The notes under the pieces were generated by a model. That model was not told where the DNA came from. It saw nothing but the letters and a program-made list of their open reading frames with translations, and did no database searches. Source: Gammaproteobacteria bacterium (GTDB lineage Bacteria > Pseudomonadota > Gammaproteobacteria > Magnimaribacterales > D2472). Taken from it: a stretch of 46,878 nt of DNA. Position 1 is the first letter of the stretch; the number at the start of each line of letters is the position of its first letter. This document shows positions 6,330-25,044 of the stretch, in pieces. The DNA lies in NCBI GenBank assembly GCA_008080945.1, contig VMDH01000039.1, positions 1 to 46,878 on the forward strand, in the 5' to 3' direction. The translations under genes and the position numbers were made by a program.

Positions 6330-6944
6330 ATGATTCTATATTCTGATAAAGATGATCATTACAGCCACAGAGTACGAATTGTGCTTGCTGAAAAAGATGT
6401 TGCTTGTGAAATAAAAGAAACAACTAATGAGGAAGCACCCGAGGAGGTCCTCTCAATTAACCCAGAGCATTGTCTCCCAATTCTAGTAGATAGAGAGCTA
6501 GGCTTATACAATGCTGCGGTAATGCTTGAATATCTTGATGAAAGATTTCCTCATCCTCCATTATTACCAGTGTATCCAGTTAATAGAGCCAATTGCAGAA
6601 CTTTAATGCTGAGAATTGATAAAGAAATTTCACCCTTAGTAGATACATTAATCTCTGGCGCGGGGACTGAAAAAGAGATTCTTGCTACCAAACAAGACCT
6701 TTTACATGAAATTACTTCTCTTGCTCCCACCTTTAAAGAGTTTAAGTATTTCATGAATGAAGAGTTTTCTTTGTGCGATTGTTATTTGGCACCAATCCTA
6801 TGGAGACTTCCTTCGCTTGGAATCAATCTTCCATTAAATAGACATACCAAGGCATTAATAGACTATCAGAAAAGGATCTTTGATAGACCAGGTTTTCAAG
6901 ACAGCCTGTCATTAGTTGAAAGAAATTTAACTAGCGCAATCTAG
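6330..6944 (+). CDS. sspA: Stringent starvation protein A (GST-like)
   Basis: N-terminal thioredoxin/GST fold sequence SHRVRIVLAEKDV...NPEHCLPILVDRELGLYNAAVMLEYLDERFPHPPLLP; canonical position after petABC. Confidence 0.93.
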   Translation: MILYSDKDDHYSHRVRIVLAEKDVACEIKETTNEEAPEEVLSINPEHCLPILVDRELGLYNAAVMLEYLDERFPHPPLLPVYPVNRANCRTLMLRIDKEISPLVDTLISGAGTEKEILATKQDLLHEITSLAPTFKEFKYFMNEEFSLCDCYLAPILWRLPSLGINLPLNRHTKALIDYQKRIFDRPGFQDSLSLVERNLTSAI

Positions 6945-8056
6945 GCCTCAAGTTTCGAAAGACTAAGCAGTCTTTCAGCGCAAGTATTTCCCATCATCAG
7001 TAATCCAGTATTACCATTAATTATTTTAGTAGAGCTATTTAGTTCATAAATAGCCTTCAACACCATCCAGTCCATAACAATTCCACTTATCAGAGCTTCT
7101 TCCTTATAAAGCAAGGTTGGGTCTTGAAGATAAAACTGAGGAGCAGCAAAATTCACTCCTTCATAATCTATTAAATCTCCTTTATTTAAATTTGATTTCA
7201 GGGCATTAATGCTTGAGTAATATAAGAGCTTATTAGCGTAGTTATATTTAAATGCAGGGATTAGTTTTTTTTGAACCTCATGATCAGCATCAAATACCAA
7301 TACCTCAAGATCCTTCCTAATTCTTGGAGTAAATTCAATATTGATTGGAACAGCTAGCCTTTCAATCTTTTTAAATCTTTCATTGCTTTTTGTAACCTCT
7401 AAAATTGAGGCAGCAAACTCTTGAGGATCTTGATTCTCATAAACGAAAATATAGTTTGGATTTATATCAAGATATCTTGTTATTACATCTCCAGGAAAGT
7501 TTGTTATTACAGTAATATTTTGATCTTCTGAGGATCGAGATTTTGCTATAGTTTTGAGGCTATCCAATTCTAGAGAGTTACAAAATAATTCATTGCTCCT
7601 TAAAAATTGAACAGCCTGGGTATCATTGAATGAAAGTTCAAAATTATAAGGGAGCTTAAAAACCGACTCAATGAAGGTTTGTTTTAATTCATTAGGAGCA
7701 GTAATTGCAATCTTGCGGTTTAAATTACTTTTTATTTGTAAGAGATCATTTCTTAAGCTATTTAGTGTAGATTTATCCTTATTAGAAAGATCATTTCTAT
7801 CAATAATCTTATCAAGTTCATTAAAATTTTCTTCAGAGAAGCTTCTAAAGGCAAACATTCTCTCAATCAATTTATATTCAGATTCTGAATATTTACTAGA
7901 TAGAATGACTGAGCCTATATCAATATTATAGGAATCATTATTTTGAGCTTGGCGAGCTTGAGTATTCTTTAACTGATTAGCAGAGCACCCTATCAAAACC
8001 AATAAAATTAGGGCATTTAAAGTAATTTTAATAGTATGATATTTTTTTAAGTCCAT
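6941..8056 (-). CDS. lpoA: LppC/LpoA-like lipoprotein (PBP activator family), shortened N-terminal region
   Basis: Lipobox LIGC; C-terminal RIRKDLEVLVFDADHEVQKKLIPAFKYNYANKLLYYSS resembles LpoA C-terminal domain; canonical position next to rsmI. Confidence 0.75.
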   Translation of the reverse strand: MDLKKYHTIKITLNALILLVLIGCSANQLKNTQARQAQNNDSYNIDIGSVILSSKYSESEYKLIERMFAFRSFSEENFNELDKIIDRNDLSNKDKSTLNSLRNDLLQIKSNLNRKIAITAPNELKQTFIESVFKLPYNFELSFNDTQAVQFLRSNELFCNSLELDSLKTIAKSRSSEDQNITVITNFPGDVITRYLDINPNYIFVYENQDPQEFAASILEVTKSNERFKKIERLAVPINIEFTPRIRKDLEVLVFDADHEVQKKLIPAFKYNYANKLLYYSSINALKSNLNKGDLIDYEGVNFAAPQFYLQDPTLLYKEEALISGIVMDWMVLKAIYELNSSTKIINGNTGLLMMGNTCAERLLSLSKLEA

Positions 8057-8864: not shown

Positions 8865-8888
8865 AACTAGTTGTTTAAAATGCTTTTC

Positions 8889-9210
8889 GAGTTGATCGGA
8901 TGATTGCTGAGTTATCAGAGGAAAGTCCGGACTTCAAAGAGCAAAGTGCCAGGTAACTCCTGGAGGGTGTGAACCCATGGAAAGTGCAACAGAAAATAAC
9001 CGCCTAATTGGGTAAGGGTGAAAAGGTGAGGTAAGAGCTCACCGCTTGCTTGGTAACAAGCAAGGCTGTGTAAACCCCACTTGAAGCAAGACCAAATAGG
9101 GATTCTATACAGCTGCTCGTTGTGAATTCGGGTAGGTCGCTAGAGCAATGTGGTGACATATTGTCGAGATAGATAATCATCAAGACAGAATCCGGCTTAC
9201 AGATCAACTC
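8889..9210 (+). ncRNA. rnpB: RNase P RNA, bacterial class A
   Basis: P1 pairing GAGTTGATC (8889-8897) with GATCAACTC (9202-9210); conserved GAGGAAAGTCCGGACTTC, GTGCCAGGTAACTCCTGG, AGTGCAACAGAAA, GGTAAGGGTGAAA, GGTAAGAGCTCACCGC, GTAAACCCCACTTGAAGCAAGACCAAATAGG, GACAGAATCCGGCTTA. Confidence 0.97.
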
Positions 9211-9233
9211 ACATACTTTTAAAAATCTAAAAA

Positions 9234-9281
9234 AAAGTGTGTAAAAGTGTACAAAAAGTGGTATAAAGTGTGTAATAAGTG
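9234..9281 (+). promoter_or_regulatory. Array of five MraZ-box-like AAAGTG direct repeats upstream of mraZ
   Basis: AAAGTG at 9234, 9244, 9255, 9265 and TAAGTG at 9276 (steps 10, 11, 10, 11 bp). Confidence 0.8.
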
Positions 9282-9299
9282 CAATATAAATATCACTAA

Positions 9300-9767
9300 A
9301 TGTTTGGATATAACGAAATTTCAATAGATGCAAAGGGAAGAATCTCAACTCCTGCGCGTTACAGAGAAAATTTTACGAATTCAAATACATCTAAGTTAAT
9401 CATTACAAGAGATCCACAATATCCTTGTTTAAAAATTTATCCGGAAGCCTCTTGGCAGAATTTATCAATAACTTTGCAAAAGATGCAAAGCTTGGATCCT
9501 GTAATTAGAAAATTGCAATGGACTATCCTAGGCCATGCTTCAGAATTAGATCTGGATCCAACTGGGAGAATGTTGCTTCTTATACCAGCAGATTTAAGAA
9601 CTTATGCGGGTATAAATGTTTCTGAAAAAGTTGCATTTATAGGAATGGGCGACAAATTTGAAATGTGGAATTTAGATAGCTGGCAAGCTAGGCAGGATGC
9701 AGCTCAATTGTCAACAGAGATTTTAGAAATTGTTTTACCAGAGAGCGTAAAAGCTCTTTCTTTGTAA
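9300..9767 (+). CDS. mraZ: Transcriptional regulator MraZ
   Basis: GYNEISIDAKGRISTPARYR...LDPTGRMLLLIPADLRTYAGI duplicated MraZ/AbrB-like domains; first gene of dcw cluster. Confidence 0.96.
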   Translation: MFGYNEISIDAKGRISTPARYRENFTNSNTSKLIITRDPQYPCLKIYPEASWQNLSITLQKMQSLDPVIRKLQWTILGHASELDLDPTGRMLLLIPADLRTYAGINVSEKVAFIGMGDKFEMWNLDSWQARQDAAQLSTEILEIVLPESVKALSL

Positions 9768-9777
9768 AGGGGATTGT

Positions 9778-10899
9778 ATGAATTGGGAAATTATCGACGA
9801 ATTTGCTGAACAAGCAAAAATTAAAGTTATCGGGGTGGGTGGTGCCGGAGGCAATGCCGTGATTCACATGATGAATCAAAATATTCAAGGAGTTGAATTT
9901 ATTTGTGCAAATACTGATGCTCAGGCATTAGAAAGAGCTAATGGTGCCACCATTTTAAAACTAGGCAACGGTGTAACTAAAGGGTTGGGAGCGGGAGCCA
10001 ATCCAGAAGTCGGTAGACAAGCTGCTGAAAGAGACAGAGAGGCAATAGAGGAGCTTCTCAGCGGTGCAGATATGATTTTTATCACCGCTGGCATGGGTGG
10101 AGGTACTGGAACAGGTGCTGCGCCAGTAGTAGCATCTATTGCTAAAGAGCTTGGTGCATTAACTGTGGCGGTGGTAACTAAGCCATTTAAATTTGAAGGT
10201 CCAAAAAGAACTGGGTCAGCAGAAAAAGGAATTGCTAGTCTAGTAGATGAAGTTGATAGCTTGATCACAATTCCTAATCAAAAACTTATTGATGTATTAG
10301 GCGAGAATACCTCAATGATGGATGCTTTTGCTAAAGCAGATGATGTTTTAAAAGGAGCTGTACAAGGTATTTCAGATATTATTATGAAGCCAGGTTACAT
10401 CAATGTTGACTTTGCCGATGTAAAAACTGTTATGTCAGAGAAAGGTATTGCGATGATGGGAACAGGTAGGTCCGGAGCTAAAGACAGAGGTATTGAAGCA
10501 GCATCTCAAGCAGTTGGCAGTGAGTTATTAGAGGATATTGATCTCAAAAATGCTAGAGGTGTTTTAGTTAATATTACAGCTAAAGAGCCAACCTTGGGAG
10601 ATTACAATGAAGTCAGCTCTGTTGTTGAAAAATTCATTGCAGAAGATGCCACAATAATCTACGGAACCGTCGTTGATGACACTTTTGCCGATGAGGACCT
10701 TATGGTTACCGTTGTAGCAACAGGCGTCTCACAAAAATCCCCAAAACTAGCTGTAGATAATGTAAGACCAACTATAAAGCTTAATCCGGTTGGTTTAGAT
10801 AGTGACAAAACAAAACAAGTTGCAAACGTTGGCGCATCGTCTGCAGAGGATATTGATTTCCTCGATGTGCCAACATTTATGAGAAAACAAGTAGATTAA
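9778..10899 (+). CDS. ftsZ: Cell division protein FtsZ
   Basis: IKVIGVGGAGGNAV, tubulin signature GMGGGTGTGAAPV, C-terminal peptide DIDFLDVPTFMRKQVD. Confidence 0.99.
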   Translation: MNWEIIDEFAEQAKIKVIGVGGAGGNAVIHMMNQNIQGVEFICANTDAQALERANGATILKLGNGVTKGLGAGANPEVGRQAAERDREAIEELLSGADMIFITAGMGGGTGTGAAPVVASIAKELGALTVAVVTKPFKFEGPKRTGSAEKGIASLVDEVDSLITIPNQKLIDVLGENTSMMDAFAKADDVLKGAVQGISDIIMKPGYINVDFADVKTVMSEKGIAMMGTGRSGAKDRGIEAASQAVGSELLEDIDLKNARGVLVNITAKEPTLGDYNEVSSVVEKFIAEDATIIYGTVVDDTFADEDLMVTVVATGVSQKSPKLAVDNVRPTIKLNPVGLDSDKTKQVANVGASSAEDIDFLDVPTFMRKQVD

Positions 10900-11795
10900 T
10901 GACTCATATTCCAGTTTTACTGGAAGAGTCAGTTGATTTACTTGTCCATAATCCAAATGGCGTATACATCGATGGAACCTTTGGAAGGGGAGGCCATTCT
11001 AAAAAGATTCTTTCAAAATTAAGCAGCAAGGGTAGCCTCATAGCTTTTGATAAGGATCTAGAGGCAGTAAATTTTGCTAAATCTACAATATCTGATAAAA
11101 GGTTCTCTATTTTTCACGGAACTTTAAACTCTAAATCGATTAAACATCTTACATATGGTGTGGACGGAATACTTTTTGATTTTGGTCTTTGCTCCACTCA
11201 ATTAGATGACGCTGAAAGAGGATTTAGCTTTGGTAAAGCTGGTCCACTAGATATGCGTATGAACCAAGAGAGTGGGATTTCGGCAATGGAATGGCTATCT
11301 AAAGCCACTGAAAAAGAGATTGCCGACGTATTATGGAAATATGGTGAGGAGAAACATTCTAAGTCAATTGCAAGATTAATCACTAATACTCAACAACGGC
11401 AACCTATTACTTCAACTGCGAAGCTAGCTGGGTTGATCGAGGAAAAATTTCCCAGAGTTGGAAGAAAACATCCCGCTACTAAGACTTTTCAAGCTATAAG
11501 AATTTATATAAATGATGAGATTGAAGATTTAAAAATTAACTTATTAACTGCTGATCATTTGCTTAGCTCAGGCGGAATTATTGTAACCATAGCTTTCCAT
11601 TCGCTTGAGGACAGAGAAATAAAAGAGTTTTTTAAGCCCTCTAGGACAGAAGTTCATAAAGATATTCCATTAAACCCAATCATTGAAAAAAAATATAATA
11701 GTATTACTAACAAGTTAAAGCCAACTCCTGAAGAAATTTTAAACAATCAAAGATCAAGAAGCGCTATTCTGAGGGCATATCAGAAAAATGAATAA
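10899..11795 (+). CDS. rsmH: 16S rRNA (cytosine1402-N4)-methyltransferase
   Basis: HIPVLLEESVDLL...YIDGTFGRGGHSKKIL...FDFGLCSTQLDDAERGFSF. Confidence 0.98.
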   Translation: MTHIPVLLEESVDLLVHNPNGVYIDGTFGRGGHSKKILSKLSSKGSLIAFDKDLEAVNFAKSTISDKRFSIFHGTLNSKSIKHLTYGVDGILFDFGLCSTQLDDAERGFSFGKAGPLDMRMNQESGISAMEWLSKATEKEIADVLWKYGEEKHSKSIARLITNTQQRQPITSTAKLAGLIEEKFPRVGRKHPATKTFQAIRIYINDEIEDLKINLLTADHLLSSGGIIVTIAFHSLEDREIKEFFKPSRTEVHKDIPLNPIIEKKYNSITNKLKPTPEEILNNQRSRSAILRAYQKNE

Positions 11796-12033
11796 ACTAA
11801 CTTTTATTTTAGTGTGCTCAGTATTTATTAATGTCTTATTAGCACTTTATTTAGTAAAGGTTCGCTGGGAAAATGTCCAACTAACCGAAAATATCGAAGC
11901 ATTAACAATTCAAAATAATAAAGTTTTGGAATTGCATACAAAATTAATAACTGAACTCAATATTCTCAATTCAAATGCTAAGAATGAGAATATTGCTAAA
12001 GAGAAACTTCAGATGATAGATCCTGATGGGTAG
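11788..12033 (+). CDS. ftsL: Cell division protein FtsL
   Basis: Small bitopic protein (N-terminal TM plus coiled coil) between rsmH and ftsI. Confidence 0.82.
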   Translation: MNKLTFILVCSVFINVLLALYLVKVRWENVQLTENIEALTIQNNKVLELHTKLITELNILNSNAKNENIAKEKLQMIDPDG

Positions 12034-13633
12034 CACGCTAGGATTAAAAAACTGGCGCGCAATATTGATTTTTCTATTCTTTGGAATTTTCTTTTTATGC
12101 ATCATTTTCAAGATGTCCCATCTTGCCCTTATACAAGACGAATACCTCAGTAACAAAGGAAAAGACTTAAGCGAGGGATTGAGACCCATTAAGGTGTTAA
12201 GAGCATCAATTTATGATCGCAATAATGTCCCTTTAGCAACAACTATTAAAAGATATGATCTTTATGGGCTTAAAGGCTTGAAAGAGGGTGATGTACCCAA
12301 TTTTTTTAATAACAATTTGTCACATTTTAAGGACAATATACTTACCAAGAAGAGTCTCATAAAAAAGGATTTATCTCTTGAAGATTTAGAATTCGTAAAG
12401 AAATTAAGGAATAATTTACTTGAAATAGAGGAGCACCAAACAAGAATATATCCATTTGCTGAACAATTTTCTAATATTATTGGTTTTTCAGGAAAAGATG
12501 GAAAAGGTTTAGAAGGAATTGAGTTAATTTATGATGAGTTACTCAGTGGAACTGATGGCTCAAAAAAAATTTTTAAGAATCGAAATCAGCAACCCTTTAA
12601 AAAACCTTTAATTATTCAAGAACCAAAAAATGGACTCGATATAACTCTTACCCTAGATAAGGATTATCAATTTATTGCCTTCAAAAACTTAATTGAGGGA
12701 GCAAAAAAATTCCAAGCCTCTGGTGGGAGTGTTGTCATACTGGATAACAAACTTGGTGAAGTCTTGGCTGCTGCTAGTTTTCCATCCTATAACCCAAATA
12801 ATCCAAGCAGAAAGATTCAGCGCAACAGAGTTTTTCTCGATGCTTATGAGCCAGGATCGATTATGAAGCCTTTTGCGTACGCCCTTGCCTTAAAAAATAA
12901 TACTCTTGAAGCTAATGCTATTATTGATACAAATCCTGGATCATTAACACTAAATGGCCAAAAAATTGTTGACCCAAGAAACTATCAAGAAATTACAGCA
13001 AGAGAGGTCATTGCTAAATCGAGCCAAGTTGGAGCATCTTTAATTTCAATTTCAATACCAAGCAATGAATTTATTGAAGGCATGAAGAGTTTTGGGTTTT
13101 CAAAACCTATATCTATAGACTTCCCATCTATAAATTTTGGAATAATAAATCAAAGAGAAAATATTTCACAACATGAAATAGCAAGCTTAGGATTTGGATA
13201 TGGTTTAACTGCTTCTCCTATACAAATTGCAAGAGCATTTTCTATTTTTGCAAACGATGGAGTTTTGAAAGATTTTGTAATGATTAAAGGTGATTATGTA
13301 TACGAAGATAAAGTTTTAGATGAAACAATTAGTAATGAAATTATTCAGGCACTTGAGTTGGTTGTGCAAGATGGAACTGGAACATTAGCCAGATCAGATT
13401 TTGCTAAAGTTGTTGGAAAAACAGGAACCACCCATAAAGTAAGCTCTTCAGGGGGATATGATAAATCAAGCTACACAGCCTCATTTGCTGGCATCGCAGA
13501 AATGGGAGATAAGTCCCTTACTATTTTTGTATCTATGGATGAGCCAGGTCTTAACAGATACAGTGGAGGGACGGTAGCTGCACCTGTATTTGCAAGTATT
13601 ATCCAAGACTTACACCAATTATCACTGCAATGA
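12026..13633 (+). CDS. ftsI: Peptidoglycan transpeptidase PBP3/FtsI
   Basis: Transpeptidase motifs: EPGSIMKPFAY, SSQ, VGKTGTTHK. Confidence 0.96.
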   Translation: MGSTLGLKNWRAILIFLFFGIFFLCIIFKMSHLALIQDEYLSNKGKDLSEGLRPIKVLRASIYDRNNVPLATTIKRYDLYGLKGLKEGDVPNFFNNNLSHFKDNILTKKSLIKKDLSLEDLEFVKKLRNNLLEIEEHQTRIYPFAEQFSNIIGFSGKDGKGLEGIELIYDELLSGTDGSKKIFKNRNQQPFKKPLIIQEPKNGLDITLTLDKDYQFIAFKNLIEGAKKFQASGGSVVILDNKLGEVLAAASFPSYNPNNPSRKIQRNRVFLDAYEPGSIMKPFAYALALKNNTLEANAIIDTNPGSLTLNGQKIVDPRNYQEITAREVIAKSSQVGASLISISIPSNEFIEGMKSFGFSKPISIDFPSINFGIINQRENISQHEIASLGFGYGLTASPIQIARAFSIFANDGVLKDFVMIKGDYVYEDKVLDETISNEIIQALELVVQDGTGTLARSDFAKVVGKTGTTHKVSSSGGYDKSSYTASFAGIAEMGDKSLTIFVSMDEPGLNRYSGGTVAAPVFASIIQDLHQLSLQ

Positions 13634-15045
13634 GAGCCAATATTTTTCAACAATATTTTGGCGACAAAATTAAGATAAAAAAAGATTTTCATATTACCGA
13701 CCACTCAAAAAAATTAACTACTAATAGTATTTTTTTTGCTAGGCAGGGCGTTTACTCTCACGGAAATGATTTTATTAATGACAATCTTATTCAGAAGGCT
13801 AAATTTATATTTAGCTCAAAAAGAGCCAAGGTCAAAAGCGATAATTTTATTTATGTTCCAAATTTAGAATCCAAGCTTTTAAATTTCTTGTTTGCATATT
13901 GGGATATTCCAAAGACCACAAAGTTTTATGGAATTACAGGAACCAATGGTAAAACTACAACTGCATTTATCTTGTATCAATTACTAAAGAAACTTAACAA
14001 GAATGTTGTCTACATTGGCACTATCGGGGCACATATTAATTCTAAGTGGTATAAGGTTTCCAATACAACACCAGGATTATTTAATTTATTTCAGTTAATA
14101 GGAAGGCAAAAAGATAAGGATGAGCTTTGCGTAGTGCTCGAGGTTTCATCGCATGCCTTGGATCAGGAGAGACTGGGAAAATTAAGGTTTGACTCATCGT
14201 TGATTACCAACATTGCATCTGATCATTTGGATTATCACAAATCTCAAGAGAATTATGAGAACGCTAAGCTAAAAATTATTTCCAAAACCAAGGGACCAGT
14301 TTTTTGTGCAGGTAATTCATACAAAATACTTGAAAACAAATCAGCTTTCTTAAATTCAACTAAGCCTATTAAAATTGAATACCACAGGAATAATAAAGAC
14401 CCAAAGGCAATAAGCTATGAGCTTAATAAATCACTGCTTAAATTTAACTTGGATTCCGCAACTAGATTAAGTTTTGCAAGTCCATTTCAAGACAGCTTAA
14501 ATAATTTAAACTTTGTATCAGCTTTATCAATGTTATCTGCCATAGATAAGCGCTATCTTAATAACCTAAGTACATCAAATTTAAAATTACCTAAAGGGCG
14601 CTTTGAGTTAATTCCATTAAAGCAAAATAAAACCATCATTGTAGATTTTGCTCATGATCATAACTCTATGAAAGCCCTTCTGAAGGAAACCAGCAAGGAT
14701 TTCAAACATAAGGTAGTGGTTTTTGGTTGTGGAGGTAACAGAGATCGAGCAAAAAGACCAAAAATGATGAAGATTGCCATCAAATATGCTGATGAAATTA
14801 TTTTTACTTCCGATAATTCTAGAAATGAAACTTTTCAATCTATTGCTGAAGATGCACTCTCAGGAAGAAAAGAATCAAAAGTAAAGCTCATTGAAAATAG
14901 AGGAGATGCCATAATAGAGGGCATCTCCAGAATGCAAACCAATGGCGTATTATATGTATTGGGGAGAGGCCATGAAACAATTCTTGAGATTGGTAACAAG
15001 AAGACCTTTTTCAATGATGCAAATTTTATAAGGAAGAGTATTTGA
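13630..15045 (+). CDS. murE: UDP-N-acetylmuramoyl-tripeptide synthetase MurE
   Basis: YGITGTNGKTTTAF, EVSSHALDQERLG, TNIASDHLDYH; order in dcw cluster. Confidence 0.95.
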   Translation: MRANIFQQYFGDKIKIKKDFHITDHSKKLTTNSIFFARQGVYSHGNDFINDNLIQKAKFIFSSKRAKVKSDNFIYVPNLESKLLNFLFAYWDIPKTTKFYGITGTNGKTTTAFILYQLLKKLNKNVVYIGTIGAHINSKWYKVSNTTPGLFNLFQLIGRQKDKDELCVVLEVSSHALDQERLGKLRFDSSLITNIASDHLDYHKSQENYENAKLKIISKTKGPVFCAGNSYKILENKSAFLNSTKPIKIEYHRNNKDPKAISYELNKSLLKFNLDSATRLSFASPFQDSLNNLNFVSALSMLSAIDKRYLNNLSTSNLKLPKGRFELIPLKQNKTIIVDFAHDHNSMKALLKETSKDFKHKVVVFGCGGNRDRAKRPKMMKIAIKYADEIIFTSDNSRNETFQSIAEDALSGRKESKVKLIENRGDAIIEGISRMQTNGVLYVLGRGHETILEIGNKKTFFNDANFIRKSI

Positions 15046-16385
15046 GGATTCTACATAACGTCAATCAAGTCTATAGCTTCTTAAATATATCCAAGACTTC
15101 AGATCCTTTGCCTATTAAGTCAATCTGTATAAATTCAAAACAGGCATCTAAGCATTCACTCTTCTTTGGATTGCCTGGAGAAAATACCGATGGAAGTAAA
15201 TATTTTGAGGAAGCCTTAGCAAAAGAAGCAGCTCTATGCATTATCAAGCACGGCTTTACTGATCAGAAAAATCATACTGCTCTTTTAGAGTGTGAGGATG
15301 TTTTATTTACCATGACTGAGCTCAGCAAGGCTTGTAGACAAATCTTTAAGGGTAAAGTTATTGGAATCACGGGTAGCAATGGCAAAACCACAACCAAAGA
15401 AATTATAAAGCAAGCTTTGCCAAATATTTTTGCAACAGAAGGCAATCTTAATAATGAAATAGGGGTACCTATCAATATCCTTAATCTAGAAGATTCTCAT
15501 CATTATGCTGCTATTGAAATGGGAGCAGCTAAGATGGGAGATATAAAATATTTATCATCTATTGCTCTTCAGGATATTGGAGTTATCACATCTATAGGTA
15601 GGTCTCATATTTCAGGGTTTGGATCAGTAGAAGCTATTCTTGAAGAAAAATCAGAAATTATTAAAAACCTTCCTGCCGATGGCTTGGCTGTAGTACCTTT
15701 TGGACAACATGTCGACTTTTGGAATTCTGTAAAAACATCAGAAAAGCTAGTTACCTTTGGTTTAGACCGAAGAGCTGATTATTGTTTCGAGATAGTAAGT
15801 AATGATTTAGACAACAGCCAACAAAAAATTGAGGTATTTATTAAACAAAAAAGCATTGGATTTTTTTACTCAAATTTACTGGGTGCCCATAATGCTCTCA
15901 ATCTAGGAGCAGCCTTTGCAGTTTGTCATAACTTGGGTTTGCAGCTTGAAGAGTTTAGTAATAGATTAAAAGAGCTTTCAAATATTCACAATCGTCTTGG
16001 GTTGGCAAAATGGATTAAAAATTCAACAATAATTGATGATACTTACAATGCTAACCCAGATTCGACAATTGCTGCATTAAAATACCTTGCAAGCTTCAGC
16101 GGCAAAGAGAAAATTGCTGTTTTGGGTGATATGTTAGAACTGGGCAACGACTCCAAGGAGTATCACTCAAATATTGGAGAGATGGCAAAGGCTTTGGATA
16201 TCGATATACTGCTTGGATTTGGCGAATTCATGCAATATGCTGTAGAAAGCTTCGGGAGCAATGGAATTTTCTTTACAAGGGAAGCAGAGCTAAAAGAATA
16301 TTTGAAAGAATATGCTGCAGTCGATAAGGTATTTCTTTTAAAGGGATCCCGTGGCATGAAGATGGAGCGATTTAAAATAATATGA
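15042..16385 (+). CDS. murF: UDP-MurNAc-tripeptide:D-Ala-D-Ala ligase MurF (TTG start)
   Basis: [34 protein letters not shown]. Confidence 0.96.
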
Positions 16386-17461
16386 TTGAATATTTAAGTA
16401 ATTATCTTATTGAATATAATCAGAATTTTGCTGTTCTAAATTATCTGACTCTTAGAACTGTGGCAGGAACTATCACTGCTTTACTTATTGCAATATTTTT
16501 TGGGCAGTTTCTAATTGATACTCTTTCTAAATTTCAATTTTCTCAGACTATAAGAGAAGATGGGCCAAAGACACATTTATCAAAATCTGGAACCCCCACC
16601 ATGGGGGGCATTCTAATCATTATCAGTCTTTTGATTTCAAACCTACTCTGGAGTGACTTAAGTAACCCTTTTATTTGGATTTTACTTTGGGCCACGATTT
16701 CTTTTGGATTCATTGGATTTATGGATGATTTTTTAAAGATTAAATATAAAAACTCAATAGGACTAACTAGTTTCCAAAAGATTTTTTTTCAAAGCTTGGC
16801 AGCTTTAATTGCTATCAGCTTATACATCTTCAACTTTGGGACAGAAACTTATCTAATGCTTCCTTTTTATAAGGATTTTATTTTTGAGATCGGGATCTTG
16901 TTTTTTATTGTTTTTAGTTGGTTTGTGATTGTGGGTTCCTCAAATGCAGTAAATTTAACGGATGGGTTAGATGGGTTAGCTATTTTGCCGGTAATTTTGA
17001 TTGCAGGAGCACTTGGAATAATTGCTTATGCATCTGGTAACACCATCATTGCTGATTATCTCTACATACCCTACATTCCAAACTCAGGTGAGCTGATAGT
17101 CTTTTGCGGGTCTGTGATTGGAGCAGGCATTGGTTTTCTTTGGTTTAACTCTTATCCAGCACAAGTATTCATGGGCGATGTGGGCTCTTTAACCTTGGGA
17201 GCAATTCTAGGTTGTATGGCAGTCTTATTAAGGCATGAAGTCGTCTTTGCAATCATGGCAGGTGTATTTGTCATGGAAGCCATGAGCGTGATCATTCAGG
17301 TTACATCTTACAAAACTCGCAGAAAAAGAGTGTTCTTAATGGCGCCCATTCACCATCATTTCGAACTAAAAGGCTGGCCTGAACCTAAGATCATTGTTAG
17401 GTTCTGGATCATTACTTTGCTCTTGATACTAGTAGCTTTAGCATCTCTAAAGATTAGGTAA
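16382..17461 (+). CDS. mraY: Phospho-N-acetylmuramoyl-pentapeptide-transferase MraY
   Basis: [53 protein letters not shown]. Confidence 0.98.
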
Positions 17462-17465
17462 TACC

Positions 17466-18794
17466 TTGAAAAGGGTGGTCATAGTTGGCGCAACCAAAAC
17501 AGGAAAATCTATTCATAACTTTCTTAAATTAAGAGATATCCCTCATTCCATAGTTGACACTAGAGATAACGCAAGTTTTATTGAAGACGATAGCGAAGAA
17601 TTTCTTTCAATAGTCAAATTTGGGAAAGAGAAAGTAAAGGAAGCTATTGCAAACGCCGACGAGGTATATTTTTCACCAAGTATCGATCAGACGGAGTTTG
17701 AGATTCCTAAAGAAAAGATTAAAAGCGAACTCAATCTTTTTTTAACTTTCTCTAAACATTTTACTATAGGTATTACTGGCACTAATGGTAAAAGCACTGT
17801 CTGTTATTTCATCAGTCAATTGCTGGATTCATTAGAAGTTCCTAATGAAATTATTGGTAACTTTGGCTTGCCAATGATAAATGGATTATCTGGAGATCTT
17901 AACAAGGTTCTAATTGTTGAGCTCTCAAGCTTTCAGCTTGAGGATGCATCTAATTCTTCTTTACCTAATTTAAGCGGTCTTAATATTGCAGGATTTATAA
18001 ATTTCTCTGATGATCATTTAGATCGTCATGCATCAGAAGAAACCTACTTAAATGCAAAAAAGTGCATTGAAAAGAAAATTAAACCTAATGGGGTCTTTCT
18101 ATATAACCAAGCATATATAGCTACTCACCCATCTTATTCTCAGAAAGGAATTCCAGTAGGAAAAGAGAATCTTGGTTACAACTATAGACAATTAGCTGAG
18201 TGCTTAGCTTTTGAATTTAATGATCAAGAGATTGCTAGAACTACTCAGAAATTATCAGCCATAAATGCAGAGAATTTATTGTTTGCAATTGGTGTAGTTC
18301 ATCAATTATTCATTCAAAAGAACGTATTGCTACCTCAACCATTTAATTTAGATAATCTAGATTTATTAAGATTTAGAATGGAGGTGATAAAAGATACAGA
18401 TAAAGTAACTATAATCAACGATTCGAAATCAACCAATCCACACTCTACATGTGCAGCCATAAATCAGCTTGCACCTCTTAATAAGAGACTAATTCTTATT
18501 TTAGGAGGTGATACTAAGGGATTAATTTTCTCAAAAAATTTACTTAATCTGCCTCCTGATGCTACTTGCTATATTTATGGCAAAGACAAAGATAAAATCT
18601 ATCAAGAAATATCTTTTAAGAACTCTTTTATTTTTGAGACTCTCAAAGAAGTCATAGATCATCTAGATACTCAGAGTAACAATAATGTGCTCATCCTTTT
18701 CAGTCCTGGATGCTCAAGTAAAGATCAATATAGGGATTATATTCATCGGGGAGATGAATTTACCCAATATTTAAAAGATTGTTCCTTTTTATAA
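17466..18794 (+). CDS. murD: UDP-N-acetylmuramoylalanine-D-glutamate ligase MurD
   Basis: GITGTNGKSTVCYF, VELSSFQLED, FSDDHLDRH, NDSKSTNPHST. Confidence 0.96.
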   Translation: MKRVVIVGATKTGKSIHNFLKLRDIPHSIVDTRDNASFIEDDSEEFLSIVKFGKEKVKEAIANADEVYFSPSIDQTEFEIPKEKIKSELNLFLTFSKHFTIGITGTNGKSTVCYFISQLLDSLEVPNEIIGNFGLPMINGLSGDLNKVLIVELSSFQLEDASNSSLPNLSGLNIAGFINFSDDHLDRHASEETYLNAKKCIEKKIKPNGVFLYNQAYIATHPSYSQKGIPVGKENLGYNYRQLAECLAFEFNDQEIARTTQKLSAINAENLLFAIGVVHQLFIQKNVLLPQPFNLDNLDLLRFRMEVIKDTDKVTIINDSKSTNPHSTCAAINQLAPLNKRLILILGGDTKGLIFSKNLLNLPPDATCYIYGKDKDKIYQEISFKNSFIFETLKEVIDHLDTQSNNNVLILFSPGCSSKDQYRDYIHRGDEFTQYLKDCSFL

Positions 18795-19900
18795 TGCAAA
18801 AACTTAATTTCTCAATTCTTTTGCCATTTCTAACATTATTAGTATTTGGGCTAGTGATGGTATTTTCAGCAAGTGTATTTGTAGAGGAATCTTTAGGAAG
18901 AACACCGGATCCATTCGCCTATGGATACAAACATCTTATATTTATATTGATAGGATGCGGAGCCATGCTAATTTCTTTTTTTATAGATAGCAATTTTTAT
19001 AAAACTTATGATTGGTTGATATTAACATTTTCAATTTTTCTCTTAGCAATAATTTTTATTCCAGGCATAGGACATGAGGTAAATGGGGCAAGGCGGTGGA
19101 TTGATTTAACCTACATAAAGGTGCAACCATCTGAGCTAATTAAATTTTCTTTAATTATTTACATATCTGCATACTCATTAAGAAGAAAACATGAGCTTTC
19201 TAGTGTTATTGGTTTTTTAAGACCGATGTTAGTTTTATTTCTAATAGCATCTTTGATTATGGCTCAACCTGATCTAGGCACAACCTTAATATTGTGTCTA
19301 TTAGCTGTAATTATTTTATTTTTTGCAGGCATCTCTATAGGACAATTTTTTATTCTTGTTATTACAATTTTTTGCTTGGGAACCATGGCAATATTTTTTG
19401 CACCATGGAGGCTTGCAAGACTTACAAGCTTTATTGATCCTTTTGAACAGTTTTTGGATTCTGGATGGCAGCTTGCAAATGCCTTGATTGGTTCAGGGAG
19501 AGGCGAGATTTTTGGAATCGGATTAGGTGCTAGCATCCAAAAAAACCTTTATTTACCCGAGCCGCATACAGATTTTATATTCTCCATTATTGTTGAGGAG
19601 CTCGGGATGTTAGGAGGCCTAGGATTAATTGCAATTTTTACAATGCTAGTACTCTCTATATTGAAAGAATCAAATAAATGCTTCAGTCTTGGAAAAACTT
19701 TTCAAGGACTAATCTGTTACGGAATAGCTATTTTGATCTCTATTCAAAGCATGTTTAATATTGGTGTAAATATTGGACTACTTCCCACAAAAGGATTAAC
19801 TCTTCCTTTTATAAGTTATGGTGGAGCAAGTCTAATCACTTTTATGACTATGATAGGGGTTACTCTAAGAATAAGTTTTGAAAATAATACAAAAATATAG
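18794..19900 (+). CDS. ftsW: Lipid II polymerase FtsW (ORF track starts 18779; ATG at 18794 overlaps murD stop)
   Basis: SEDS family: NGARRWIDL, QPSELIKF, QPDLGTTLIL, PEPHTDFIFSIIVEELG, LPFISYGGASL. Confidence 0.96.
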   Translation: MQKLNFSILLPFLTLLVFGLVMVFSASVFVEESLGRTPDPFAYGYKHLIFILIGCGAMLISFFIDSNFYKTYDWLILTFSIFLLAIIFIPGIGHEVNGARRWIDLTYIKVQPSELIKFSLIIYISAYSLRRKHELSSVIGFLRPMLVLFLIASLIMAQPDLGTTLILCLLAVIILFFAGISIGQFFILVITIFCLGTMAIFFAPWRLARLTSFIDPFEQFLDSGWQLANALIGSGRGEIFGIGLGASIQKNLYLPEPHTDFIFSIIVEELGMLGGLGLIAIFTMLVLSILKESNKCFSLGKTFQGLICYGIAILISIQSMFNIGVNIGLLPTKGLTLPFISYGGASLITFMTMIGVTLRISFENNTKI

Positions 19901-20935
19901 ATGAATAATATTCTTGTTGCCGCAGCTGGAACTGGTGGACATGTCCTTCCAGCTTATAGATTTGCTAAGCATGCGAAAACTTCTGGAAATAAAATTATTT
20001 GGATTGGAGGCAGGAGAGAGATTGAAAGGAAATATGCTGCAAAAGTGAATGCCGATTTTTATTCACTAGGTGCAACTGGAGTTAGAGGAAAAAATATCTT
20101 TGAGAGCTCAAGAGCAATTTTTAATTTAGGTTTTTCTACAGTTGCATGCATATTTAATTTTATAAAAACCAAGCCAGATATAATTGTTGTTTTTGGGGGA
20201 TACATATCGATTCCTGTTGGAATAGCTGCAATCATTTTAAGAAAGAAATTATTTACTCATGAACAAAATACAGTCTTAGGAACCGCCAACAAATTCTTAA
20301 GTAAATTTGCAAAAATTAATTTCCTTGGGTTACCCCTTCATCATGAATCAGTCTCAAGGGCTAAACTAGTTGGAAATCCCGTTGATGTTTTAACTCAAAA
20401 AGATAAACCCAAGGATACAAATAAGTTGAATATCTACGTCACTGGAGGAAGCTTGGGCTCAGAATTTATTAATACCAATATTCCATCGTTACTATGTCAG
20501 TACTCTGAAAAAATTCAAATTATCCATCAATCAGGAACAGGGAATAGCGATATAGTTAGAGAAAATTACAAGCCATTTAAAAATGTTGAAATCAGCGAGT
20601 ATATAGAAGACCCTCTTACAACAATGCAAAATTCAGATTTTGTTATTTCTAGAGCAGGAGCATTAACACTTTCTGAGCTTTTGATGATTGGGCGAGGAGG
20701 TATAATCATTCCCTTGCCTTCAGCAATTGATAATCATCAATTTTTTAATGCAGAGTACTTTTGTGGAATTGGAATGGGTTTTATCTTTCAAGAACATGAA
20801 GACATTAATAAGCTTAAGAATATTTTAGATGAATTGATTCTCAATGAGGGTTTCAGAAAATTTAATGTGGATGCAGAGGACAAAAATCCTGCTGAGAAAA
20901 AAATGCTTGAGAGTATTCTAGATTATGGGAAGTAA
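19901..20935 (+). CDS. murG: UDP-GlcNAc:lipid I GlcNAc transferase MurG
   Basis: AAAGTGGHVLPA, VVFGGYISIP, HEQNTVLGTANK, ISRAGALTLSEL. Confidence 0.97.
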   Translation: MNNILVAAAGTGGHVLPAYRFAKHAKTSGNKIIWIGGRREIERKYAAKVNADFYSLGATGVRGKNIFESSRAIFNLGFSTVACIFNFIKTKPDIIVVFGGYISIPVGIAAIILRKKLFTHEQNTVLGTANKFLSKFAKINFLGLPLHHESVSRAKLVGNPVDVLTQKDKPKDTNKLNIYVTGGSLGSEFINTNIPSLLCQYSEKIQIIHQSGTGNSDIVRENYKPFKNVEISEYIEDPLTTMQNSDFVISRAGALTLSELLMIGRGGIIIPLPSAIDNHQFFNAEYFCGIGMGFIFQEHEDINKLKNILDELILNEGFRKFNVDAEDKNPAEKKMLESILDYGK

Positions 20936-22316
20936 CAGAAAGCTAGGAGCAACAAATAGAGTTCACATGATTGGTATTGGGGGCTCTGGAATGCTTGGAA
21001 TTGCCTCCATTTTGCTCAAAAAAGGATTTTTTGTATCAGGGAGTGATGTAAGCATAACCAAGGATTTACTTCTCTTGCAGAAGGAGGGTGCGTTAATACA
21101 AGAAGGTCACAAACCTGATTTGATTAAGCGTGCTCAAATCGTGGTTTTCTCTTCTGCCATAAAAAAAAGTAATCCAGAGCTAAAAGAGGCAAAAGCAAGG
21201 AATTTAATCATTGTGCCAAGAGCTCAGATGTTAAGTAGCATCATAACCGGATACAGAAATATTGCTGTTGCAGGCAGTCATGGTAAAACTACAACCACAA
21301 GTCTGTTAGCAGAGATCTTTATCAAAGCTAAAAAAGATCCGACTTATGTAGTTGGTGGAAAGATTTTAAGTGGAGGTAAAAGCTCAAATTTAGGAAAAGG
21401 TGACACAATGATTTTTGAGGCAGATGAAAGTGATGGGTCATTTTCACATTTTCATCCTGATGTTGCCCTTGTTACAAATGTTGATAATGATCATCTGGCA
21501 TTTTATAAAAATGATTTAAATAATTTACATAAGGCTTTCAAGCATTTTCTAAGAAATATACCTTTTTATGGGCATGCAGTTATTAACGGAGATGATGCCA
21601 ATCTAAAAAAAATCTTAAAGTTTGTAAAACGAAGATTTATAACTGTAGGTTTTAATAAAAAAAATGATTTTATAATTTCTAACCTTGCGGTAAAAAATAA
21701 ATTTCAAACTTTTCAAATAAGGTCCTCCACCAATCAAAGATTTATAACCTTAAGAACCCCATTATTCGGTAAGCACAATGTTTTAAATTCATCGCTTGCA
21801 GCAATTACTGCCCTAGAAGAGGGAATTAATAAAGCATCAATCAAGGCAGCAATTAAGGAATTCAAAGGTACCTCAAGACGTTTTGAGGAGCATATAGTAA
21901 GAATTAATAATAAGAATACAATTATGGTTGATGATTATGGCCATCATCCAGCTGAAATAAATGCAACTATTGAGGCTGTGTATCAAAAATTTGGTTCAAA
22001 GAATATTTGTATGTTTTTTGAGCCACATAGATTTTCTAGAACGAAGCAATTATTTAGTGATTTCGTTAAAGTCCTTTCAAAAATTTCAGAGGTACATATC
22101 TTTCCTATTTATCCAGCCTCGGAAAAACCTGTTAGAGGCATTACTTCAAAAAAACTTGTAAGCGAGATTAATAAGATAAATGGAAATGCATATTTAATTG
22201 ACAAGCAGTCTGTTAAGGAAGTGCTTTATGAGAGAAATTCAGTGCCTGATGTGATTTTGGTGCAAGGTGCAGGAACTATTGCAGAAATAGCTTCATTAAT
22301 AAAAGAATATGAGTGA
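20925..22316 (+). CDS. murC: UDP-N-acetylmuramate-L-alanine ligase MurC
   Basis: VHMIGIGGSGMLGIA, GSHGKTTTTSL, EADESDGSFSHFHPDVALVTNVDNDHL, MVDDYGHHPAEI. Confidence 0.97.
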   Translation: MGSNRKLGATNRVHMIGIGGSGMLGIASILLKKGFFVSGSDVSITKDLLLLQKEGALIQEGHKPDLIKRAQIVVFSSAIKKSNPELKEAKARNLIIVPRAQMLSSIITGYRNIAVAGSHGKTTTTSLLAEIFIKAKKDPTYVVGGKILSGGKSSNLGKGDTMIFEADESDGSFSHFHPDVALVTNVDNDHLAFYKNDLNNLHKAFKHFLRNIPFYGHAVINGDDANLKKILKFVKRRFITVGFNKKNDFIISNLAVKNKFQTFQIRSSTNQRFITLRTPLFGKHNVLNSSLAAITALEEGINKASIKAAIKEFKGTSRRFEEHIVRINNKNTIMVDDYGHHPAEINATIEAVYQKFGSKNICMFFEPHRFSRTKQLFSDFVKVLSKISEVHIFPIYPASEKPVRGITSKKLVSEINKINGNAYLIDKQSVKEVLYERNSVPDVILVQGAGTIAEIASLIKEYE

Positions 22317-23202
22317 TAAAAAAATTGCGATTCTGACAGGTGGCTCATCATCAGAAAGAGAAATCTCTTTAGAGTCTGGTCAAAATATTCATAATGTTTT
22401 GCTAAATAAAGGCTTCAATTGTGAATTGATTGATTATCTTAATCTTGAAGATCTAAAAAATTTAGAATCCTTTGATAATGTATTCATAGCAATGCATGGA
22501 TATGAAGGAGAATCTGGCAGCTTGCAAAAAGAACTCACTAGGCTTGGAATAAAATTCACCGGATCAAATGCAGAAGGTTGCAGAAATACATGGAATAAAG
22601 ATATTTTTAAACAATTGCTGATAGAAAATGATCTTCCAACTCCTAAAAGTTTGGTTACTACAGATATCTTAAATTATGAGTTTCCCTCAGGTTTTTTTAA
22701 GGATAACTATTTTTTTGTAAAGCCAGTGGCTGATGGCTCTAGTTTAGATACTTTTGAAATTTCTTCTGAGCAAGACTTTGAATCTGCAAAAATGTTGATA
22801 AAGAATTCTTCCCAAGGATTTCTTCTTGAGGAGAGTATTAAATATAAAGAATTTACCGTAGCTATCTTACAAGATCAGGTCTTACCTGTGCTTGAAATAA
22901 AAACTCCGAATGCTTTTTACGATTATGATGCCAAATACATCAGTGATAAAACCATTATCACTGAGTCTGAGTTAGGCTCTACAGAAATGAAGGCAATACA
23001 AGATCTTGCTATGGATGCTTTTATGATTAGTGGTTGTAGTGGATGGGGAAGGGTAGATATTTTACAAGCAGAGGATGGATCTTTTTACGCAATCGAAATT
23101 AATACTGTGCCTGGAATGACTAGCCATAGCCTTTTCCCTAAAGCTGCTTCATTAGCAGGAATTAGCTCAGATGTGCTTTTAGAGAAAATAATGAAAAAAT
23201 GA
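22309..23202 (+). CDS. ddl: D-alanine-D-alanine ligase
   Basis: ILTGGSSSEREISLESG, AMHGYEGESG, FVKPVADGSSLDTF, INTVPGMTSHSLFP. Confidence 0.96.
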   Translation: MSDKKIAILTGGSSSEREISLESGQNIHNVLLNKGFNCELIDYLNLEDLKNLESFDNVFIAMHGYEGESGSLQKELTRLGIKFTGSNAEGCRNTWNKDIFKQLLIENDLPTPKSLVTTDILNYEFPSGFFKDNYFFVKPVADGSSLDTFEISSEQDFESAKMLIKNSSQGFLLEESIKYKEFTVAILQDQVLPVLEIKTPNAFYDYDAKYISDKTIITESELGSTEMKAIQDLAMDAFMISGCSGWGRVDILQAEDGSFYAIEINTVPGMTSHSLFPKAASLAGISSDVLLEKIMKK

Positions 23203-23825
23203 GATTAGTTTATTGGTTTTTATTATTAACTTTCCTTGCGGCTTGCTCTAAAGAACAAAATATTTCAATTCATTTTAATGATGAAGTCTTTCTTGATGCT
23301 CAAATTAATTTCGTGAGACAGCTAGAAAATCTTGATAGCCTTAGCGTTACTTCAATAAAAACAATCTTAGCTGAGCAAGACTGGATTGAAAGCTTTTCTT
23401 TAAAACATGAAAGTTCCCAGAGTACAAAATTAATTCTCAACAGCAGGTTGCCATTACTAAATTGGGAGAAAGCCTATCACGTAGACAAAAACCTTAACAT
23501 TTTTAGTTCCCTGGGGAAGACACTAGATATTCCAATGATTTCGGCCCCTTATGACAAGTTAGCTGATTGGGTTTTTTGGCATGATTTATTTAAAACTGTT
23601 CTTGAGGATCATGGCTTAACAATGAAAGAAATAAGATTTATTTACGGAGCAGGGTGGGAAATTGAAACTGATGATTTAATCATAAAAATCGGAAGCATAA
23701 TCAACCAAGAAATATATGAAAAATATCTAGAAGCTTTAAATTATGTATTCAGAAAGAACTTAAATCCTAGTATCATGGATTTAAGAAATTTGAATGGAAT
23801 TGCCCTAAGTTATGCCAAAAAATAA
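23199..23825 (+). CDS. ftsQ: FtsQ-like division protein with predicted lipoprotein signal
   Basis: Position ddl-X-ftsA; QDWIESFSLKHESSQSTKLILNSRLPLLNW fits the POTRA/beta-domain transition of FtsQ; N-terminus MRLVYWFLLLTFLAAC. Confidence 0.82.
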   Translation: MRLVYWFLLLTFLAACSKEQNISIHFNDEVFLDAQINFVRQLENLDSLSVTSIKTILAEQDWIESFSLKHESSQSTKLILNSRLPLLNWEKAYHVDKNLNIFSSLGKTLDIPMISAPYDKLADWVFWHDLFKTVLEDHGLTMKEIRFIYGAGWEIETDDLIIKIGSIINQEIYEKYLEALNYVFRKNLNPSIMDLRNLNGIALSYAKK

Positions 23826-25044
23826 TTCAAAAAATGAAACTGACTTTCTAGTAGCCCTTGATGTGGGTACATCTAAAATTGTTTGTTTAATCGGTCAAGT
23901 TATAGATTCTCATTCTATTGAGGTAATCTCAATGGGAAGTTATCCCTCTAGCGGATTAAAAAAAGGGGTGGTGGTTAATATAGATGCAACTACTGATGCC
24001 ATTCAAAAATCAGTTGACCAAGCAGTTTCATCTTTTGATGGAAAGATTAAGAATGTTTATGTTGGTATAGCAGGCCAACATATCAAAAGCCTAAATTCCC
24101 ATGGCATTGTTCGTATTGAAAATAAGGAAGTTACATCAAAAGACATAGATGGGGTAATTGATATGGCTCAGGATGTTTCTATTCCTTCTGATCAAATGCT
24201 ATTACATGTTTTACCAAAAGAATTTTATATTGATGATCTAGACTCTATTAGAGAGCCTTTGGGCATGTCTGGTGCAAAATTAGGAGCACATGTTCATTTA
24301 GTTACTTGTGCTGTTACAGCCATGCAGAATATTGAAAAATGTGTAAGAAGAAGTGGCTTAAATATCGATGGCTTCGTATTGGAGCAATTAGCAAGTTCAT
24401 ATTCTGTTTTATCTGATGATGAAAAAGAGCTTGGTGTCTGTCTTGTAGATATTGGTGGTGGAACCACAGATATTGCTATTTTTAATAATGGCTCTATAAC
24501 TTTTACAGGGGTTATTCCAATTGCTGGAGATCAGGTTACGAGCGATATTGCGGTAGCGCTTAGAACTCCTACTCCGCAAGCAGAAGATATCAAGCAAAAG
24601 TATGGATGTGCAGTCTCTGATTTTACTCAGGATGATGAAGTAATTGCAGTACCAGGTGTTGGAGGGAGGCCCCCAAGAGATCTTTCAAGGCGATCACTTG
24701 CTGATATTATTGAACCCAGATATGTTGAACTTTTTGAGCTCGTAAAAGCAGAAATTGAGAGAAATGGATTTGAAAGCAAAATTCCTGCTGGAATTGTACT
24801 AACAGGCGGCACCTCTCAAATAGAAGGAGCCGTCGAGCTTGCTGAATCAATATTTCAAACCAGTGTACGATTGGGCTCCCCTGAGAACTTTACTGGTATG
24901 GAATCAATATTGAAGAATCCTATCTATGCAACTTCTCTTGGCTTGTTGGGATATGGTTTTGATCGTTTGAAGCAAGGGTATTCTCTTGAACAAAACACTA
25001 CTCTTTTTCAAAGAGCATTCGGTTGGTTGAGAAACAACTATTGA
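23812..25044 (+). CDS. ftsA: Cell division protein FtsA
   Basis: ALDVGTSKIVCLIG, VDIGGGTTDIAIF, GIVLTGGTSQIEG; C-terminal amphipathic FQRAFGWLRNNY. Confidence 0.98.
   Translation: MPKNNSKNETDFLVALDVGTSKIVCLIGQVIDSHSIEVISMGSYPSSGLKKGVVVNIDATTDAIQKSVDQAVSSFDGKIKNVYVGIAGQHIKSLNSHGIVRIENKEVTSKDIDGVIDMAQDVSIPSDQMLLHVLPKEFYIDDLDSIREPLGMSGAKLGAHVHLVTCAVTAMQNIEKCVRRSGLNIDGFVLEQLASSYSVLSDDEKELGVCLVDIGGGTTDIAIFNNGSITFTGVIPIAGDQVTSDIAVALRTPTPQAEDIKQKYGCAVSDFTQDDEVIAVPGVGGRPPRDLSRRSLADIIEPRYVELFELVKAEIERNGFESKIPAGIVLTGGTSQIEGAVELAESIFQTSVRLGSPENFTGMESILKNPIYATSLGLLGYGFDRLKQGYSLEQNTTLFQRAFGWLRNNY

Follow-up and report, generated by a model that had tools for sequence, protein, structure and literature searches.

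The mraZ locus of the window

The DNA analysed here, called the window throughout, is a stretch of 46,878 nucleotides from a gammaproteobacterial assembly, in which rnpB, the gene for RNase P RNA, is followed on the same strand by mraZ, ftsZ, rsmH and the remainder of the dcw cluster (Table 1). Within that remainder murE was called by sequence and gene order, and ftsQ, which has no Pfam match, by position. A single copy of ftsZ was found in the assembly (one genome match). Only 84 nt separate the RNase P RNA model, which ends at 9215, from the mraZ ATG at 9300; they hold an array of five direct repeats, which starts 18 nt past the model and ends 18 nt ahead of the ATG. Upstream of rnpB, on the reverse strand, a 371-amino acid lipoprotein-like protein without a Pfam match is encoded at 6944-8056, divergent from rsmI, in a spot that often holds LpoA-like proteins.

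Table 1. Features of the window at and around the repeat array
Feature	Position	Strand	Evidence and remarks
rnpB (class A RNase P RNA), preceding gene	8888..9215	+	Rfam RF00010, 323 bits, E 3.5e-105
MraZ box 1, AAAGTGT	9234..9240	+	Sequence; kept in relatives
MraZ box 2, AAAGTGT	9244..9250	+	Sequence; kept in relatives
MraZ box 3, AAAGTGG	9255..9261	+	Sequence; degenerate in many of the family's other genomes (AAAATGT, AATGTGT, AAAGTAT)
Possible weak -35, GTATAA	9261..9266	+	18 nt ahead of the -10; suggested by relatives with TTGCAA there
MraZ box 4, AAAGTGT	9265..9271	+	Sequence; kept in relatives; overlaps the putative -35 position
MraZ box 5, TAAGTGC	9276..9282	+	Sequence; confined to the genus of the window (TAAGTGT in L027)
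-10-like element, TATAAA	9285..9290	+	9 nt ahead of the ATG; predicted start site on the ATG or a few nt away from it
mraZ, 155 amino acids	9300..9767	+	PF02381, both MraZ half-domains over the Pfam cut-off
ftsZ	9778..10899	+	PF00091 and PF12327; 10 nt past mraZ; SD-like AAAGGGG
rsmH (mraW)	10899..11795	+	PF01795
ftsL, ftsI, murE, murF, mraY, murD, ftsW, murG, murC, ddl, probable ftsQ, ftsA	11788..25044	+	Pfam

Sequence and chance expectation of the array

On the forward strand AAAGTG can be read at 9234-9239, 9244-9249, 9255-9260 and 9265-9270, and TAAGTG at 9276-9281, with steps of 10, 11, 10 and 11 (mean 10.5). These coordinates and steps reproduce those of the initial annotation; of its distances, that to the mraZ ATG, about 20 nt, needs only a small correction, but the gap to rnpB is 18 and not about 24 nt. 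Boxes 1-4 are exact copies of the Mollicute consensus AAAGTGK, from which box 5 deviates. Dinucleotide shuffling of the whole window, repeated 1,500 times, never placed four AAAGTG within 48 bp of a single strand, the most being three (reached twice), and in 100,000 shuffles of the intergenic 84 bp four at 10/11 spacing did not arise. Across the 0.89-Mb assembly, the pattern AAGTGK-N3-4-WAAGTGK has three overlapping matches, all of them at the array, and its reversed control has none. AAAGTG overall is not enriched in the window (33 observed, 34.3 expected): the array is remarkable for clustering of the hexamer, not for its count.

An array that begins so close behind the RNase P RNA model, in A+T-rich DNA, might be taken for the 3' end of rnpB or its terminator, or for a chance low-complexity stretch, but no terminator-like hairpin was found at the array, the shuffles never recreate it, and homologous arrays precede mraZ where rnpB does not adjoin, for example in E. 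coli. We regard this explanation as extremely improbable, and the conservation described below rules it out.

Conservation of the boxes with mraZ

The mraZ gene and its upstream DNA were gathered from other members of the order. In all 89 of those read, mraZ is preceded by boxes at a pitch of about 10 bp, usually four of them. The script used to chain boxes also took weak boxes and some steps of 9 or 12 near the degenerate box 3, and our conclusions about boxes rest only on those with a clear GTG core. Comparison of the region before mraZ in relatives, proposed as a check in the initial annotation, bears out the boxes themselves, which are kept in the mraZ-carrying members of the order that were read; the repeat number and the 10/11 alternation, named in the same check, turn out to be restricted to one genus. 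The window and its single genus mate are the only two genomes with five boxes at 10/11/10/11; between them the 52-bp array is identical and the flanks have diverged. The commonest pitch in the order is 10,10,10, followed by 10,11,10. In a gammaproteobacterial sample, pairs of GTG cores numbered 106 at a distance of 10 versus 7 at 11, and in most of the sampled gammaproteobacteria the boxes keep this pitch in a looser GTGG form. A set of three perfect boxes is rare in the phylum, being present in one of 299 sampled genomes, that of the window.

A pattern scan that is blind to genes (AAAGTGKN3-4AAAGTGKN3-4AAAGTGK; GTDB release 220, one genome per species, about 85,000 genomes) returned at least 118 sites, and a MraZ gene lies directly downstream on the same strand in 101 of the 118 listed; several of the other 17 listed sites stop at the edge of the stored stretch. 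The matches before mraZ come from Bacteroidota, Bacillota, spirochaetes, fusobacteria, actinomycetes and Proteobacteria. The motif had initially been described as Mollicute-like, but since AAAGTG[G/T] arrays precede mraZ in so many phyla, these boxes are better viewed as a general MraZ site than as a Mollicute one.

One family of the order, f4, has no MraZ match in any of its 16 genomes. Neither mraZ nor boxes lie between rnpB and ftsZ in the f4 loci read, and a two-box pattern search of the f4 genomes found two scattered matches only, about the level of a control pattern. With neither the mraZ gene nor the boxes in f4, operator and regulator are therefore missing together. An MraZ operator is recognised by three or more direct GTG-core repeats at about 10-bp pitch, immediately ahead of a co-oriented mraZ, conserved with the gene and missing where the gene is missing; the array has five such repeats in that position and follows the presence and absence of mraZ. 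Conservation, the genome scan and the joint loss lend strong backing to the core of the initial reading, tandem MraZ boxes before mraZ, and the array is a well-supported candidate member of a known operator type with an unusual number of boxes.

Could the repeats instead serve another regulator, or DNA curvature through phased A-tracts, with MraZ a bystander? Helically phased A-runs can bend DNA, and the boxes do hold A-runs in helical phase. However, the conserved core is GTG and not the A-run, and the pattern follows mraZ across phyla and is gone where mraZ is gone, so that we consider such a role very unlikely.

The regulator itself has the features of its family. Its two half-domains carry DxKGR-type loops, residues D10, K12, R14, D86 and R90 are retained, and the AF2 monomer model (pLDDT 89.6) has the MraZ fold, with a match to M. 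genitalium MraZ (9qlg_A, E 6e-11, TM 0.76/0.85) and another to the solved M. pneumoniae MraZ. Throughout the order, MraZ has W at position 74, where the outgroups have R, and two extra residues (91-92) after R90 of the second DNA-loop motif, both coded within 9519-9575 of the window, and because of this replacement and insertion details of binding may differ. That MraZ binds the array DNA is nevertheless a prediction that we make with near certainty.

A proposed promoter position and a putative leaderless mRNA

The initial annotation had packed all of the regulatory DNA into the boxes, a claim that the -10-like element between box 5 and the ATG contradicts. In the family, 41 of 61 loci have a -10-like hexamer ahead of the mraZ ATG at a distance of 4-10 nt; shuffles gave 11.4 on average and at most 22. 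Most of the signal is due to genera 2-7; it is missing from genera 9 and 10 and so does not hold for the whole family. Only 4/61 loci of the family have an SD-like motif ahead of mraZ, compared with 61/62 ahead of ftsZ. From these observations we infer that mraZ mRNA would seem to be leaderless in part of the family, in several genera. No good sigma-70 site turned up at the array in a generic promoter scan, which, like the weakness of the putative -35, counts against the proposed reading.

At the level of the class, 24 of 51 loci have a TTGACA-like -35 located 15-19 nt before a -10 that is fused to the first box (TAnnGTG), an arrangement seen in none of the 61 loci of the window's family, several genera of which have the -10-like element past the boxes. 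By this comparison, the ancestral promoter layout is lost in the family.

Would MraZ repress or activate?

We propose that neighbouring subunits of one ring-shaped MraZ oligomer would each read one AAAGTGK box, all from one side of the DNA helix. Box 4 would lie over the -35 position and box 5 over the spacer up to the -10, and because these two boxes would cover promoter elements, bound MraZ could block RNA polymerase. Transcription of mraZ would be lowered by negative feedback, and with it that of ftsZ, which comes second in the unit, and mraZ-ftsZ would form a self-limiting pair.

The Mollicute system offers the closest parallel. The Mollicute MraZ site is (AAAGTGKN3)3 (PMC5282649), and structures of M. 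genitalium MraZ have been solved in complex with its promoter and with one that has four boxes (9r4j, 9sz7). As in M. gallisepticum and M. genitalium (PMC5282649, PDB 9sz7), the AAAGTGK direct repeats of the window lie upstream of mraZ at a single genomic site and ftsZ belongs to the controlled cluster, but the window has five boxes at 10/11/10/11 where Mollicutes have three or four at 10, ftsZ is second rather than fourth, and the host is an unrelated, walled bacterium. The E. coli MraZ operator, AGTGGGAAAT TGTGGGGCAA AGTGGGAATA AGGGGTG (L093), shares the GTG core, the 10-bp pitch, and the location just ahead of mraZ at the head of the dcw cluster, and differs in having GTGG where the window has GTGT. 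A further relative is the HsdC operator of Mollicutes, also built of GTG-core direct repeats and bound by M. gallisepticum MraZ in vitro (PMC5282649); its repeat spacing is 1 nt off that of MraZ boxes, and it controls restriction-modification genes, none of which adjoins the array of the window.

MraZ of E. coli and of M. genitalium represses, and M. genitalium mraZ mutants overexpress ftsZ (PMC8475190). We favour repression because of this behaviour of the two proteins and the rise of FtsZ upon loss of M. genitalium mraZ, and repression by occlusion is, on the arrangement of the boxes, what we would expect as the likely mode. MraZ can also act as an activator, since in Neisseria elongata deletion of mraZ lowers dcw expression, and overexpression raises the dcw genes (PMC9395523). 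An activating MraZ, sitting on the same operator beside or over the -35, would recruit RNA polymerase and drive ftsZ. Overexpression of M. gallisepticum MraZ was accompanied by more FtsZ, as cited at second hand in PMC8475190, and most of the boxes in the window's family are upstream of the putative -10. Against activation stand the E. coli and M. genitalium precedents and the placement of boxes 4 and 5 on the -35 and spacer, a typical repressor location, and we consider activation unlikely. For the locus as a whole, the five-box array is best explained as an MraZ operator heading the dcw cluster and acting by occlusion-type repression, a reading that we consider highly probable.

Position of ftsZ and absence of mraZ within the order

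The window's order, which comprises four families with genomes of 0.7-1.8 Mb and 36% G+C, in line with PMC11582366, is probably SAR86, a group of small-genomed marine bacteria. The array extends the known operator to streamlined marine gammaproteobacteria. It is of a known type and a less interesting result than the rearranged ftsZ and the three forms that the locus takes in the order.

In E. coli-like clusters ftsZ is found near the cluster end, behind ftsA. Counted per genome, the order mraZ-ftsZ-rsmH is present in 62 of 62 genomes of the window's family (f1), whereas rsmH is next after mraZ in all 28 of families f2 and f3, where ftsZ follows ftsA in two annotated loci. Outgroup loci have rsmH after mraZ in 141 cases and ftsZ in none, two more being without a call. 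On the gene orders read, the dcw cluster is rearranged differently in each family. A comparison of L068 and L067 gave a compact mraZ-rsmH-ftsL-ftsQ-ftsA-ftsZ order with no intervening mur genes for f2, and mraZ-rsmH-ftsA-ftsZ-ftsI for f3.

The f4 rsmH loci have the order rnpB, ftsZ, rsmH. In all seven f4 genomes read for this spacing (L265, L266, L268, L269, L271, L272, L274), the end of the rnpB model is 19 nt from the ftsZ ATG, and a TA-N3-T hexamer stands exactly 6 nt ahead of that ATG. Because of this hexamer, a leaderless promoter of its own would be at least as likely for f4 ftsZ as read-through from rnpB. In an RsmH tree each of the four families forms one clade, and f1 and f4 are joined with moderate support (85/88), which makes f4 the likely sister of the window's family; since the tree joins the two, a single relocation of ftsZ before the loss of mraZ in f4 fits.

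How might these arrangements have arisen? We give an even chance to the following history: in one SAR86 family ftsZ left its place at the dcw cluster end for one directly behind the MraZ operator, where a new downstream promoter and, in several genera, a leaderless mraZ left a minimal mraZ-ftsZ feedback switch, and its sister then lost mraZ together with the operator, leaving a leaderless ftsZ 19 nt behind rnpB. If this is true, division control in these abundant ocean bacteria would exist in three natural states. No report of the rearranged ftsZ or of the three locus states was found in the literature searched, outside which most subscription journals lie, and a 2024 SAR86 comparison does not mention ftsZ. 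One family has ftsZ under an MraZ operator and the likely sister has ftsZ without one, so that the order could provide a natural comparison of division with and without MraZ.

The arrangement may also bear on measurements in the ocean. A 2026 study used the ratio of ftsZ transcript to RNase P RNA, with Rfam references, as an in situ growth index, and described day-night change in SAR86 (PMC13349992). Because rnpB and ftsZ are close together in this order, with 19 nt between them in f4, the two markers may not be independent.
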